Program-made: the position numbers and the translations under genes
The notes under the pieces: generated by a model
Told to the model about the DNA's origin: nothing
What the model saw: the letters and a program-made list of their open reading frames with translations, nothing else
Database searches by the model: none
IMG/VR virus record: IMGVR_UViG_3300035698_003351
Coordinates: 1 to 34,142 of that record
Origin: a virus
Length of the DNA: 34,142 nucleotides
Strand: one strand, 5' to 3'
Shown: positions 3,206-11,011 of the stretch, piece by piece
Position numbering within the stretch: the stretch's first letter is position 1
Layout of the letters: every line of letters starts with the position of its first letter

Positions 3206-4349
3206 ATTGTTAATGAAATTCCCGCATCAGAAAGTGAGAGCTTGGCAAATCAAGGAACACGTCAAGCGTTTTTATAATTATGACATGGACGAATCAACCA
3301 TTAGAGGCAGGTTTATCATAATGAAAGAATCGTTAAGTGGTACAAGTGATCAAAAGTTCACACCTAAAATAAAACAACCAACGGAACAGCCAAAGATTCA
3401 GTATAAAGAGCCTGAGATCCCAGTATTTGTAGTTCCCGATAGGCTCAAACAGTATATTCCTCAAGATAGTGAGTTTGACCATTATATTGAACGTGGTGTT
3501 GATAAGCGTCTTGGTCTTCATTATGACTCAGGTAAGTTTCCTCTTACTCAAGGTAAACAGGGGACAGGCAAGACGTTCAGTCATAGTTATTATGCTTGGA
3601 AGCGTAAACTACCATTCTATGTACTAAGCTGTTATGAAGACTTCAAGTTACCTAAACTATTTGGAGAGAAGACAATAGAGAATGGCAGTGTAATCTTTAA
3701 AGAAAGCTTGTTTGTTGAAGCTATTCAGAATCCAGGTGTATGGTTAATGGATGAGATTAATGCAGTATCTAATGCTAATACCTTCGACTTCCATGCGATC
3801 TTACAGCAAAGAGAACTATTCATCAAGGATGCGGACAATGGTAATGGCAAACTGTACAAGCTACATCCTCATTTCAAGATGGGCTTTGCACAGAATCCTA
3901 AATCAGCTAAGTATATTGGTGGTAATGTTAAACCTAGTAACTTCTTAGGCAGATTGACTTACATTACTTACCCAGAGTTCACTAAGAATGACATACTTAA
4001 AGCTGTACAAAAGAAATTCCCAGCATTACCGCTAGATGATGTAAAAGCGTTTGTTACATTCTATTTTGCTTGTATCAGTACAATCGAGAAGAGTAATATC
4101 CCTGTTGACATTAGTATTAGGCAGTTATTTAATGTAATTGACCTATACACCTCAGGTATGCCTCTTAAAGAGAGTATTGAAGATGGTATGACAAGTATCA
4201 TGGAAGCAGTTAGTCAACCACAAAGCAAAGACGCTTTCTGGAGATTAGCTCAAGCTAATTGGGCAGAGTTGTTAGATGAAGATAAACTTGAGACGTTAAG
4301 CAGGTCAAGAGGATTTGCTAATGTGTTCTTAGGTGGGTGGAGTAAATGA
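3156..4349 (+). CDS. MoxR/CobS-like AAA+ ATPase
   Basis: This is a 397-residue protein. The Walker A motif is GKQGTGKT (133-140), Walker B is VWLMDE (195-200), a sensor-1-like Asn sits at 247, and an arginine-finger-like Arg at 266 (FLGRL). These and the layout resemble MoxR/CbbQ/CobS AAA+ ATPases, which remodel partner proteins together with VWA-domain proteins. Residues about 8-60 look like a winged-helix domain, and 70-90 form a linker. A VWA protein with an intact MIDAS lies 1.5 kb downstream on the same strand, so the two probably work as a pair. Cobalt chelation is unlikely because no cobalamin genes are present. AAAGGAG precedes ATG 3156. Confidence 0.92.
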   Translation: MAISQVNDDQLRDLRNKLLMKFPHQKVRAWQIKEHVKRFYNYDMDESTIRGRFIIMKESLSGTSDQKFTPKIKQPTEQPKIQYKEPEIPVFVVPDRLKQYIPQDSEFDHYIERGVDKRLGLHYDSGKFPLTQGKQGTGKTFSHSYYAWKRKLPFYVLSCYEDFKLPKLFGEKTIENGSVIFKESLFVEAIQNPGVWLMDEINAVSNANTFDFHAILQQRELFIKDADNGNGKLYKLHPHFKMGFAQNPKSAKYIGGNVKPSNFLGRLTYITYPEFTKNDILKAVQKKFPALPLDDVKAFVTFYFACISTIEKSNIPVDISIRQLFNVIDLYTSGMPLKESIEDGMTSIMEAVSQPQSKDAFWRLAQANWAELLDEDKLETLSRSRGFANVFLGGWSK

Positions 4350-4447
4350 AGGGTTAATGCTATGTACAATCACGAGTGGGGAGCAGGTGGGAATGGAAGG
4401 GCAACAGACTGCGGTTGCGAGAAATTGTGCATAGCATTAACCCTTCA
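4347..4447 (+). ncRNA. large hairpin RNA with 24-bp stem
   Basis: Bases 4347-4364 pair perfectly with 4430-4447. After one U-G pair the stem continues to 4370/4424, giving 24 bp in all. The 53-nt apical region contains a second hairpin, GCAAC (4401-4405) with GTTGC (4414-4418). The left arm includes the stop codon of the MoxR-like gene, and the right arm ends about 10 nt before the ribosome site of the next gene. There is no T tract, so it is not an ordinary terminator. It may be a processing site, a translational switch, a small RNA or a short inverted-repeat insertion. Confidence 0.7.
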
Positions 4448-4464
4448 GTGACAAGGAGGGAAGG

Positions 4465-4617
4465 ATGGTTAACTTTTTAATAGGTTGTGTGTTATTAGCA
4501 CTATGCCTTACTGTTGGATATTTCATAATAAATCTGGTATTTATAGTAGCAATAGTAGCAATAGCTATCATAGGATCAGGAATAGGTTGGATAATCGAGA
4601 AACTAGGAGGTAAATAG
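4465..4617 (+). CDS. 50-residue membrane protein
   Basis: This gene is too short for a 60-residue cutoff. ATG 4465 follows AAGGAGGGAAGG. Residues 3-43 are almost entirely hydrophobic (one long or two short transmembrane helices), and the last residues, EKLGGK, are charged. The stop TAG (4615-4617) shares its G with the GTG start of the following gene, and AGGAGGT inside its end serves that gene. This tight coupling supports it as real. It could anchor the MoxR/VWA complex to the membrane, or be a small holin-like toxin. Confidence 0.8.
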   Translation: MVNFLIGCVLLALCLTVGYFIINLVFIVAIVAIAIIGSGIGWIIEKLGGK

Positions 4618-5270
4618 TGGCTTACAATTTAAATGTTATAGCAAAAGACATCACGTTCAACAGTAAATACCAGAACCTCAGCAAGTACAAGAAGCCAGCA
4701 ATCGAAGCTAAAGCACCCAACGGCAAGCTTGTATCTGAAAAGACTACGTATCAAGGTCAGGTGTTGGGACCAGGTTCAACACAGAGGCAGTGGGTTGATG
4801 ATGTTGGTGCTGTTTATTCTAAGCAAGAGCTTACTTTCCTGTATGAAGGAGAGCCAGTTGAAGAGAACAGTATGACTAAAGTGTTTCACGTGGAACAGTT
4901 TCAACCATTAGCTAATTACACTGATACTTATGTAATCGATAAGTATTATGAAATATTCCCTAGTGATAATGGTCATAAGAAGGATATTGACAAGTCTATG
5001 GCTGTTAAGACTAACCTCTCAGCTATGTATAGATTATGGGAGAAACTCACCACAGAGGAAGTTGTAGGTAGAGGTGAGTTCTGTACTAGCTCAAGAGGTT
5101 TTGTTGCCTCTGACGGCTACGTGAGAGCCATCAGCATAGAAGGAAAGTGGGGATTAGAGATCGGAATATTCAAAGAAGAGAAGGTATTTCAGCATTTACA
5201 AGAAGGTAAACCAAGTGAAGTCAAAACAGCCGTTCAATCAGGTCTAAAGAAACGCCTTAAGATGGTATAA
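4617..5270 (+). CDS. uncharacterised protein, possible Ku-like fold
   Basis: This is a 217-residue protein with a GTG start coupled to the preceding stop, with AGGAGGT just upstream. I cannot assign it firmly. The middle (about residues 60-180) resembles bacterial Ku in pattern: a 'V-D-D-x-G-x-V-Y-S-K-Q-E-L' stretch, then V-x-x-F-x-P...D...Y-Y-x-x-x-P, a helix ending in LWEKL, and a strand-rich segment before EEKV. Ku binds DNA ends for end joining, and an ATP-dependent ligase lies 2 kb upstream. The similarity is by eye and weak. The position between the ATPase and the VWA gene could equally make it a partner of that pair. Confidence 0.9.
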   Translation: MAYNLNVIAKDITFNSKYQNLSKYKKPAIEAKAPNGKLVSEKTTYQGQVLGPGSTQRQWVDDVGAVYSKQELTFLYEGEPVEENSMTKVFHVEQFQPLANYTDTYVIDKYYEIFPSDNGHKKDIDKSMAVKTNLSAMYRLWEKLTTEEVVGRGEFCTSSRGFVASDGYVRAISIEGKWGLEIGIFKEEKVFQHLQEGKPSEVKTAVQSGLKKRLKMV

Positions 5271-5271
5271 T

Positions 5272-5313
5272 AAGGTGGGCGGATTGCGCGCCGCAATACG
5301 CAGGGAAGGAGGG
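5272..5313 (+). promoter_or_regulatory. structured pre-ribosome-site element, copy A
   Basis: AAGGTGGGCG is followed by a hairpin: lower stem GCG/CGC (5279-5281 with 5299-5301), a G-A mismatch, upper stem ATTGCG/CGCAAT (5283-5288 with 5292-5297), and loop CGC. Then comes CAGGGAAGGAGG, the ribosome site of the next gene. Copy B at 5800-5841 has the same flanks and loop but a different, still perfectly paired, upper stem. Confidence 0.75.
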
Positions 5314-5317
5314 AACG

Positions 5318-5500
5318 GTGAAACAATCAGATGGAAGAGAAGACCTACAATTAAGATGTGATAATTGCGGAAGGAAGTTAATGCCAAGGCTTGGTTCTTA
5401 TGCGTTACGCTGTCCTGTATGTGAATACAAAGTTCCAAGGGAGGGTAGAAATGAACAAACAAACATTCAATGTACTAGAGAAAGTTTTAAATATTCTTGA
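5318..5500 (+). CDS. small double-CxxC zinc-ribbon protein
   Basis: This is a 60-residue protein. GTG 5318 follows the AAGGAGGG of element copy A. Cys14, Cys17, Cys32 and Cys35 form a classic zinc ribbon (CDNC, then CPVC). The C-terminal 17 residues overlap the next gene in another frame (50 nt) and may be unimportant. It could be a nucleic-acid-binding or adaptor protein; no family is assigned. Confidence 0.7.
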   Translation: MKQSDGREDLQLRCDNCGRKLMPRLGSYALRCPVCEYKVPREGRNEQTNIQCTRESFKYS

Positions 5501-5849
5501 AGGAATATTAGATTGTCCAAGATTAATTGATGAGGCAACAATTCCAAAAGAAGGTAGTATAAGCTACGCAAGAATTAAAGAAGCAAGAGAAAGAAGGACA
5601 ATGAATAAAAGATTCAGTGTACTTGCCAAGAAATGGGGCAAGTCAGCTGGTAAATTATGTCCTCTTTGCAATAAAACCAAAGTCCAAATGTTAGATGAAA
5701 TACTAAAAGCAACAGGGTACAAGAAAGGCAAGTCAAAATACAGTGATGGACAAATAACTAAGATAGAGATGTCTTATATCTATCAACACATCATGGGTAA
5801 GGTGGGCGACTTTTCCCGCGGAAAAGACGCAAGGAAGGAGGATAAATGA
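5451..5849 (+). CDS. uncharacterised protein with CxxC, paralogous start to VWA gene
   Basis: This is a 132-residue protein. ATG 5451 follows AAGGGAGGG (5437-5445); an earlier in-frame ATG at 5391 lies in the preceding gene and lacks a ribosome site. It is basic and helical, with Cys70 and Cys73 in a CPLC pair. Its first nine residues match those of the VWA protein, encoded by an identical 28-bp stretch. The C-terminal 17 residues are encoded by structured element copy B. The stop overlaps the VWA start. The function is unknown. Confidence 0.8.
   Translation: MNKQTFNVLEKVLNILEGILDCPRLIDEATIPKEGSISYARIKEARERRTMNKRFSVLAKKWGKSAGKLCPLCNKTKVQMLDEILKATGYKKGKSKYSDGQITKIEMSYIYQHIMGKVGDFSRGKDARKEDK
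5800..5841 (+). promoter_or_regulatory. structured pre-ribosome-site element, copy B
   Basis: AAGGTGGGCG leads to a hairpin: lower stem GCG/CGC (5806-5808 with 5828-5830), an A-A mismatch, upper stem CTTTTCC/GGAAAAG (5810-5816 with 5820-5826), and loop CGC. Then follows CAAGGAAGGAGG, the ribosome site of the VWA gene. Compared with copy A, flanks and loop are kept while both strands of the upper stem changed together. Confidence 0.75.
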
Positions 5850-7450
5850 ACAAACAAACATTCAATGTACTAGCTAAGTTCGTATCAGAAGAATGTGGGA
5901 TCAAGGTTGTTATCAATGATTCTATCGGTGGACCTCAGATGAGTATTGAAGACAAGACCATCTACTTACCTGAGAACATCAAAGAAGAAAACGCCTTGCC
6001 AGCTCTGGCTACTCTAATCCACGAAGCCTCACACATGAAATATACTGTTAATATTCCTAAGGATACTTGGGATAATAAGACAGAGTTTCATGTTCTTAAT
6101 TCAATGGAAGATGTCAGAGTTGATTTACGTAACTTTGGCATTCTTCCTAATATTAACAAGTTCTACGCTAAGATGTATAAAGAACACTCATTCAAACCAG
6201 GTAGATTGGAGAATCTAAAGAAAGCACCGTTGCTTACTAGGGTCATGATTACTAATATACTACAATGTGAAGGTTTTGGTAATTATTGCTTAGACAAAGA
6301 AGCAAGAGACATTAGTCATAAATGGGGCATAGACAATATGTTTCGGAGAGGAGTTAGAGCCTTACAAAACGAAGATTGGGACGTAGCCAAGCAACAGATT
6401 AAATTAATAATCAAGAAGTTTCAAGAAGAGGGAGGTACAAATGGTGGAAATAATCAAGACACATCCAACGCTGGAGGAATTGATAGAGTTGATGGTGGAG
6501 GGACAGGACAAGGAAACAAAGGAGATGATTGTAATTCAACTCAGAACTCTAAACCATCAGCTGATAAAGCAAATGGTAATAGTAGTTCAGGAGGAAACGG
6601 AGGAGGCAAAGAAGAAACTAAAGCAGATAAAGGAACTTCAGAAGAGAATAAGCTACCAGATAGCTCTAGTGCAGACGAATATCTCCACTCAGGAAGCGTC
6701 TGGGGAAAAGGAAGCGGACTCAAAGGAGGAGGGAGCTTAAGTTTCTCTACCCTTGAATTGAAAGAACAAACAAGAGCTAAGTTTATTGACGCATTAAGTA
6801 TAAAGGAGAAAAGGACAGTTCAAGATGGGAAAAGGTTAGATACAGATAATCTTATAGCTTTCTTTACAGGTGAAATCAATGAGTTATTCGTTGATGACGC
6901 TATTGTTAAGAAGAGACTGAGTAAGATTGTCTTTGCTCTAGACTGTTCAGGCTCAATGCGTATGGGCTTACCGTTGGCAAGAACTGCCCGCGACAAGACT
7001 CTTGTTTCTACTGTTAAAAGCTTGACTGACTTACTTGATGAGGTTATCCAAACAGAGGGAATAGCTGTTGATTATGAAGTAAACGCTTTTGATGACCGTT
7101 ACCACCGCCTAGACAAAAACAACTGGGTTGCTGAATATAGTAAATATGGTGGTGGTACTAATATTTTGGGCGCTTACAGAGAATCAAAGAAGATCCTTGT
7201 TGAGAATCCTGAAGTAGATGGTAATAAGATGTTAGTTCTTGTTACTGATGGGTGCGTTGGGAGCAATGAGATTGACCGTATCAAGCGAGACATTATATGT
7301 GACAATAATGACATAAGAGTTATGATTGTTGGCATAGGTGCTCAGATTGAAGGTCATTTCGTTAAGACAGTAATTGGAGATAATAATATTATCTGTCCGG
7401 AACACGCAGAAGAAATACTAATGGGTGCAATACAAACAATGCTAGGTTAG
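5846..7450 (+). CDS. CobT-like metallopeptidase-fold and VWA domain protein
   Basis: This is a 534-residue protein. The N-terminal domain (1-195) holds His59-Glu60-Ala-Ser-His63 (HExxH) followed by NSMEDVRVD (85-93), the paired motif of the peptidase-like region found in CobT-type VWA proteins. A Gly/Ser/Asn-rich linker (about 196-300) joins it to a VWA domain with a complete MIDAS: DCSGS (366-370), Thr438 in GGGTN, and Asp468 in VTDG. Such proteins are the known partners of MoxR/CobS ATPases, and one lies upstream in this operon. In this phage the pair probably remodels a protein or complex. Translation may be controlled by structured element B. Cobaltochelatase annotation would be misleading. 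Confidence 0.92.
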   Translation: MNKQTFNVLAKFVSEECGIKVVINDSIGGPQMSIEDKTIYLPENIKEENALPALATLIHEASHMKYTVNIPKDTWDNKTEFHVLNSMEDVRVDLRNFGILPNINKFYAKMYKEHSFKPGRLENLKKAPLLTRVMITNILQCEGFGNYCLDKEARDISHKWGIDNMFRRGVRALQNEDWDVAKQQIKLIIKKFQEEGGTNGGNNQDTSNAGGIDRVDGGGTGQGNKGDDCNSTQNSKPSADKANGNSSSGGNGGGKEETKADKGTSEENKLPDSSSADEYLHSGSVWGKGSGLKGGGSLSFSTLELKEQTRAKFIDALSIKEKRTVQDGKRLDTDNLIAFFTGEINELFVDDAIVKKRLSKIVFALDCSGSMRMGLPLARTARDKTLVSTVKSLTDLLDEVIQTEGIAVDYEVNAFDDRYHRLDKNNWVAEYSKYGGGTNILGAYRESKKILVENPEVDGNKMLVLVTDGCVGSNEIDRIKRDIICDNNDIRVMIVGIGAQIEGHFVKTVIGDNNIICPEHAEEILMGAIQTMLG

Positions 7451-10489: not shown

Positions 10490-10660
10490 CCTTGACTCTC
10501 CTGTTCCATGCCTTGATTGCTTCTTCTTTATCCCCATAATAATGTAATTGACATGGTTTTAGTAGGCCACAAGACAAACATACAAGCCCTAAATCTTCCT
10601 TAACAATCGTTATTGCTTCCCCACCACAAAACGGACACCTCTTTAACTCTATCTATTCAT
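10482..10660 (-). pseudogene. Lar-like zinc-ribbon gene with broken start
   Basis: The frame from 10652 to 10482 encodes 56 residues of a Lar-like restriction-alleviation zinc ribbon: CPFCGG, then CLSC, ending in an EEAIKAWNRR helix that closely matches the intact copy at 12373-12567. The frame has no ATG, GTG or TTG at its start; its first codon after a stop is ATA. An ATG with a good ribosome site (AAGGAG) lies at 10660, but it is in another frame and stops after three codons. Adding one base would join them. It may be a recent frameshift, a sequence error, or use of a rare ATA start. Confidence 0.7.
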
Positions 10661-10714
10661 GGGTTAGACTCCTTTTAGCGAACATGTTGTCGGGTAAAAA
10701 ATCTCAGTATTTGC

Positions 10715-11011
10715 TTAAACCGTTTGTTTGAATACAAGACTTCTCATATCTTTTAAATGTTTTTCTGTAGCTTCTAGCTTTCCCTCAACATATTTCTTTT
10801 CTACGTCTGGAACAGAATCATCTTTTTTAATTAGTTGTGCTAATTCCATATAAATATCTATGGGTATTCTTAAAATAAACTCATCCTCGGGATATGAACC
10901 TTCAGTTATGGGCTTATAAACTTTGTCTGTAAATGAATAAGCGTCGTTTTTATCCCTGGCAACAAAAGATACCATTCTTGAATAATTTTCATTTTGTTTA
11001 TATACTTTCAT
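10715..11011 (-). CDS. small protein, unknown
   Basis: This is a 98-residue, mixed-charge protein without Cys. GGGGGAG immediately precedes ATG 11011. The N-terminal half looks beta-rich (a SYPEDEFILRIPID stretch), and the C-terminal half is a charged helix. It is unlike its Cys-rich neighbours and I recognise no family. Confidence 0.75.
   Translation of the reverse strand: MKVYKQNENYSRMVSFVARDKNDAYSFTDKVYKPITEGSYPEDEFILRIPIDIYMELAQLIKKDDSVPDVEKKYVEGKLEATEKHLKDMRSLVFKQTV

Follow-up and report, generated by a model that had tools for sequence, protein, structure and literature searches.

The MoxR/VWA block and its two hairpins

The window, which is the whole 34,142-nucleotide stretch of viral DNA analysed here, carries two copies of a small hairpin element in its MoxR/VWA block. 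Copies A (5271-5312) and B (5798-5841) are flanked alike, by TAAGGTGGGCG at the 5′ side and by ACGCA(A/G)GGAAGGAGG at the 3′ side (Table 1). In each copy an outer GCG/CGC step common to both is followed by one purine-purine mismatch, which sets off a perfect inner stem on a CGC loop, of 6 bp in copy A and 7 bp in copy B. The outer stem ends at 5301 (A) and 5830 (B) and AAGGAGG starts at 5306 and 5835, leaving 4 nt between them in each. With 3′ arms that end no more than ~14 nt from a Shine-Dalgarno, both belong with the ribosome-site-proximal intercistronic hairpins of phages. An earlier note on this DNA had described two copies with common flanks and a CGC loop, each immediately ahead of a ribosome site. 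We find this to be so for both copies, whose ribosome sites are strong, with the coordinates corrected, as AAGGTGGGCG begins at 5799 and not at 5800.

Copy A follows g217, a 217-aa gene whose stop codon (5268-5270) lies 8 nt before the hairpin, and it supplies the ribosome site of a small zinc-ribbon ORF. Copy B supplies that of the VWA gene, whose start overlaps the TGA stop of the 132-aa ORF (ATGA); as the earlier note had seen, copy B also encodes the end of this upstream protein. An extended -10 match, TGGTATAAT, at 5263-5271 precedes copy A, and a transcript made from it would begin close to where hairpin A begins. This match is partly fixed by the context of the g217 stop codon, and the relative L013 has ATGGTATAA there too. 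A sigma-70 scan yielded no promoter-like site at copy B.

Table 1. Features of the two hairpin copies and their surroundings (window positions, unless a contig is named)
Feature	Position	Strand	Remarks
Hairpin C	4347..4447	+	24-pair stem, one G-U; between MoxR and 50-aa membrane ORF; z -7.3
Copy A 5′ flank TAAGGTGGGCG	5271..5281	+	holds Shine-Dalgarno-like TAAGGTGG; last three bases form outer stem
Copy A hairpin	5279..5301	+	GCG / G.A mismatch / ATTGCG-CGC-CGCAAT / CGC
Copy A Shine-Dalgarno AAGGAGG	5306..5312	+	5 nt before GTG 5318
60-aa zinc-ribbon ORF	5318..5500	+	GTG start; copy A's ribosome site; weak zinc-ribbon matches, phrog_4875 E 1.2e-5
30-nt direct repeat, copy of VWA gene start	5449..5478	+	start of 132-aa ORF
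132-aa ORF	5451..5849	+	last 17 codons contain copy B; CPLC domain
Copy B 5′ flank TAAGGTGGGCG	5798..5808	+	sequence
Copy B hairpin	5806..5830	+	GCG / A.A mismatch / CTTTTCC-CGC-GGAAAAG / CGC
Copy B Shine-Dalgarno AAGGAGG	5835..5841	+	4 nt before ATG 5846
Same 30-nt repeat at VWA gene start	5844..5873	+	100% identical, 30/30 nt
VWA-domain protein gene	5846..7450	+	ATG 5846; copy B's ribosome site
Structured insert of relative	L009 6036-6225
Structured insert of relative	L010 5937-6088
Structured insert of relative	L013 9061-9194
Structured insert of relative	L007 6701-7000
Structured insert of relative	L011 7258-7378
AAGCGNAGC-loop hairpins, L007 g217-MoxR gap	L086 1988, 2140	-
AAGCGNAGC-loop hairpin, L009 MoxR-VWA gap	L091 6082

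The element pair is not the only repeat in this region. The start of the VWA gene recurs where the 132-aa ORF begins, and another copy, which has diverged, lies inside that ORF at ~5601-5630; together these three copies point to repeated local duplication. Since these 600 nt hold several local repeats, the element pair among them, the identity of the element's flanks needs no special conservation.

Pairing and stem changes in the two copies

Perfectly paired hairpins (stem 6 bp or longer, loop 3-8 nt) are not enriched in the window, where we count 51 against 52 in shuffles, and either hairpin taken alone is not notable. When the interior letters were permuted with the flanks held, full pairing arose in 226 of 400,000 permutations for copy A and in 32 of 400,000 for copy B, and any stem at least as long in 1.4% (A) and 0.19% (B). 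Because fully paired interiors are rare under this permutation, we conclude that A and B are related and that their pairing is not accidental.

The two stems were said in the earlier note to differ completely and still to pair perfectly. They are indeed spelled differently and perfectly paired; the difference is not complete, as alignment from the base of the stem leaves two of six pairs identical (T-A and T-A, close to the base), with about four changed on both sides and copy B one pair longer. In a MAFFT alignment of A with B, double changes make up 2 of 7 countable pairs, and the score observed for this alignment is reached by 110 of 500 shuffles. Selection for pairing is beyond statistical test here because there are only two copies. 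Additionally, template switching can make perfect stems and multi-base compensatory changes in a single event (PMC8794818), so that stems changed in step between two copies say little for selection. To call this compensatory change the mark of selection, as had been done, is thus unsafe from two paralogous copies. The pair offers a clean small case in which paired changes between paralogous hairpins do not by themselves prove a selected RNA structure.

Predicted folding and access to the ribosome site

The hairpins evaluated alone have predicted energies of -10.5 (A) and -11.5 kcal/mol (B). Other folds of like energy compete and win in 58-nt pieces (z -0.08 for A, -1.27 for B). In contexts of 119 to 259 nt, hairpin A is predicted to dominate, with most pairs at 0.76-0.98 and the basal A-U at ~0.4. 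The predicted pair probability of copy B ranges from 0.08 to 0.93 by the flank taken: two contexts give ~0.9, and another gives 0.08. Altogether, the models lend modest thermodynamic support to the hairpins. The Shine-Dalgarno is predicted to be mostly accessible, with unpaired probabilities of 0.69-0.82 (A) and 0.43-0.94 (B).

Several known roles of hairpins do not fit these copies. A sequestering hairpin of the T4 gene e / I-TevI type was rejected, as the Shine-Dalgarno and the start both lie outside the proposed helix; with the Shine-Dalgarno outside the hairpin, the element is not a sequestering switch. Nor can it be a static one, because ribosomes translating the 132-aa ORF cross B, and A would be covered by a ribosome that terminates at 5268-5270. 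An intrinsic terminator was likewise dismissed: the hairpins are followed by ACGCAGGGAAGGAGG, with no U-tract, and the terminator scan made no call there. RNase III sites of the T7 type have stems of ~20 bp or more, and those of A and B have 9-10 bp with one mismatch.

Search for further copies and comparison with relatives

We found no match with the whole architecture for three exact patterns in 2.9 million viral contigs or for one exact pattern in 84,980 prokaryote genomes, with pattern matches screened for stems; these collections may omit very near relatives of the window, and absence there is not absence in nature. Hairpins near AAGGAGG in L051 and in L022, L037 and L052 stand in other gene contexts and were judged unrelated. 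A comparison with Rfam 15 gave no match at gathering thresholds; a snoRNA match on the opposite strand (E 2.3) is due to chance. Viral contigs searched with the VWA protein or the 132-aa ORF as a single query yielded no relatives, and none were found for the VWA protein, the MoxR protein or the block DNA among GenBank phages.

Among viral contigs, nine encode clear relatives of the MoxR protein, with ~53-60% identity over the best segment, and a tenth match is weak. A covariance model built from A and B and run against the nine related contigs in full and the window matched only A and B, and the flanks have no match in the nine contigs. The earlier note had proposed a search of related phages for further copies, with a covariation model, and had named their absence in advance as a refutation; none turned up. 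The element is known from one genome only.

The closest relative, L014, has the gene order ligase-MoxR-g217-VWA, with a g217 that is 69-71% identical. Its g217-VWA gap consists of 60 unstructured nt and contains neither hairpins nor the zinc-ribbon ORF nor the 132-aa ORF. Since this gap lacks the two small genes, what A and B bracket is additional material in the window. The CPLC domain of the 132-aa ORF, used as a query, has a homologue in L010 only. The gene there again lies downstream of g217, two genes further along, and a small hairpin at its end precedes the following ribosome site.

In relatives, long inserts of nested stems (z -4.8 to -9.6) are frequent in the gaps of the MoxR/VWA/g217 block, and their stems are unrelated. 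The outermost stem of such an insert mostly stops a short way ahead of the ribosome site that follows. Comparison of the long structured inserts among relatives gave short matches only and no family of shared sequence. In two of these relatives the loop AAGCGNAGC is carried by differing perfect stems (AACTTCATC, ACTCCAGC and GTGTTACC), a pattern of fixed loop and free stem as in A and B. In L004, a hairpin overlapping the VWA stop codon precedes a small ORF (~50 aa, from 8753) that lies after the VWA gene and has the look of a histone fold by eye.

A long hairpin in the window, C, ends 5 nt before an AAGGAGG (4453-4459) and has a predicted energy of -48 kcal/mol in its context. It was considered as a third homologous copy and rejected, as its stem is unrelated and the AGGTGGGTGGAG ahead of it seems to be part of the MoxR gene's own coding sequence (L014: TGTGGTGGATGAG). 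It has no Rfam match and is absent from the MoxR-g217 gap of L014. Its 24 pairs compare with the ~20 bp or more of an RNase III substrate, and any cleavage site there would be putative. The 50-aa membrane ORF behind it (4465-4617) has its L014 homologue after VWA, at 10510-10735, with the first part tandemly duplicated.

Hairpins before ribosome sites are common in phages

We surveyed 382 genes of this phage group with a good Shine-Dalgarno and found that 40-nt windows ending 5 nt before the ribosome site have a residual fold energy, relative to the prediction from composition, of -0.71 ± 0.16 kcal/mol, compared with ~+0.1 further upstream. Strong cases make up ~6% of genes just before the site, compared with 1-2% at other positions. 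Model phages show this dip to an equal or greater depth: T7 (-2.15 at -10), lambda (-1.15 at -5), T4 and N4. Co-directional gene gaps with z < -4 number 18 of 123 in this group and 13 of 45 in model phages; structured gaps are thus not peculiar to this group. As hairpins before ribosome sites are enriched in the group and in model phages alike, the A/B element belongs to an ordinary class, and phages have such hairpins often enough that this should be the explanation considered first for finds of this kind.

A proposed duplicated leader at a gene-insertion junction

On balance, we favour the reading that A and B are a locally duplicated leader, hairpin plus Shine-Dalgarno, at a gene-insertion junction, likely serving as a spacer or insulator for the ribosome site. 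We infer that such a leader cassette was placed where genes of the operon were inserted and shuffled, and that the segment was copied locally; its flanks would have stayed nearly identical, and the inner stem would have been rewritten and either stayed or re-became perfectly paired. In the mRNA, the hairpin would fold just 5′ of the ribosome site, leaving the latter single-stranded. The site would thereby be kept from pairing with the upstream message and the downstream cistron would get its own initiation site, perhaps with some nuclease protection from the hairpin. The hairpin would be melted by ribosomes completing the gene ahead of it, which read through B and stop 8 nt before A. Against this reading stand the competing predicted folds and the generic nature of an insulating role, which is read from the position of the hairpins. 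We also saw no hairpin in the tight junctions of relatives, where expression presumably works without one. If the exchange of stems in duplicated leader hairpins is functional, phages would thereby give captured genes translation signals of their own.

It seems rather unlikely that the pair is a functionless mutational product, a duplicated segment whose stem was rewritten as a perfect inverted repeat by template switching during replication. The one-event origin of perfect stems (PMC8794818), the richness of the region in local repeats and the chance-level number of hairpins in the window all agree with such an origin; however, both copies are placed alike, ahead of strong ribosome sites, a position in which phage hairpins are enriched, and copy B has been retained despite encoding protein.

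We consider improbable a protein-binding operator that represses the zinc-ribbon and VWA genes, in which a protein of the phage or its host would recognise the CGC loop together with the base, GGTGGGCG/CGCA, and tolerate any paired stem. The loop, outer stem and flanks are conserved between the copies and the stem need only pair, and in the T4 gene 43 operator the loop bases carry specificity (PMC3014915). Nevertheless, just two copies exist, within 530 nt, with none in relatives or collections; recent duplication explains the identity of the flanks equally well, and the ribosome site lies outside the hairpin. The proposal in the earlier note of a translational switch or a protein site specific to the module finds no support beyond the two copies themselves: the Shine-Dalgarno and start are outside the hairpin, relatives have no copies and such hairpins are common in phages.

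We think it likewise improbable that the copies are mobile cassettes, hairpin-plus-ribosome-site modules that give homology for gene insertion or exchange in the manner of the promoter-early stem-loops of T4-like phages. No copy occurs elsewhere in this genome or in the other genomes searched, model phages have structured gaps just as often, and a promoter is lacking at B, the extended -10 match being found only at A. These points outweigh, in our view, that A and B bracket genes absent from the L014 junction, that L014 has its homologue of the 50-aa ORF which follows hairpin C at another place, and that expanded junctions of relatives mostly hold structured inserts. Equally doubtful is a bolder combination, a two-site RNA operator or exchangeable cassette with fixed base and loop and a rewritable stem, which would control two genes of the MoxR/VWA module and aid the splicing-in of genes.

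Comparison with known systems

The split Shine-Dalgarno hairpins of T4 genes 25 and 38 are alike in having a hairpin in the initiation region after a Shine-Dalgarno-like sequence, and their working Shine-Dalgarno lies upstream of the hairpin (PMC3014915). We rejected this arrangement for A and B, in which a perfect AAGGAGG stands between the hairpin and the start, 5 (A) and 4 nt (B) from the starts. The T4 gene 43 operator (PMC3014915) shares a hairpin upstream of the ribosome site and a conserved loop; here, in contrast, conservation in relatives is lacking and the Shine-Dalgarno is outside the paired region. The CGC loop is the same in two paralogous copies, and the pattern scan and covariance model found no orthologues. 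The promoter-early stem-loop (PeSL) cassettes of T4-like phages, as described in PMC4503421, are similar in that stem-loops lie at junctions of shuffled genes; unlike them, the present element has no promoter at B, no terminator U-tract and two copies only.

The closest likeness in position is to the intercistronic and leader hairpins of T7, lambda, N4 and T4, in which a stable hairpin ends a few nt before a free Shine-Dalgarno and the same positional dip is observed. Functions identified there are the RNase III sites of T7 and phage promoters. Compared with the hairpins of these four phages, the present element occurs in two copies with common flanks and a differing stem. It is an ordinary kind of phage element, and what is unusual about it is the exchange of stems between the two copies.
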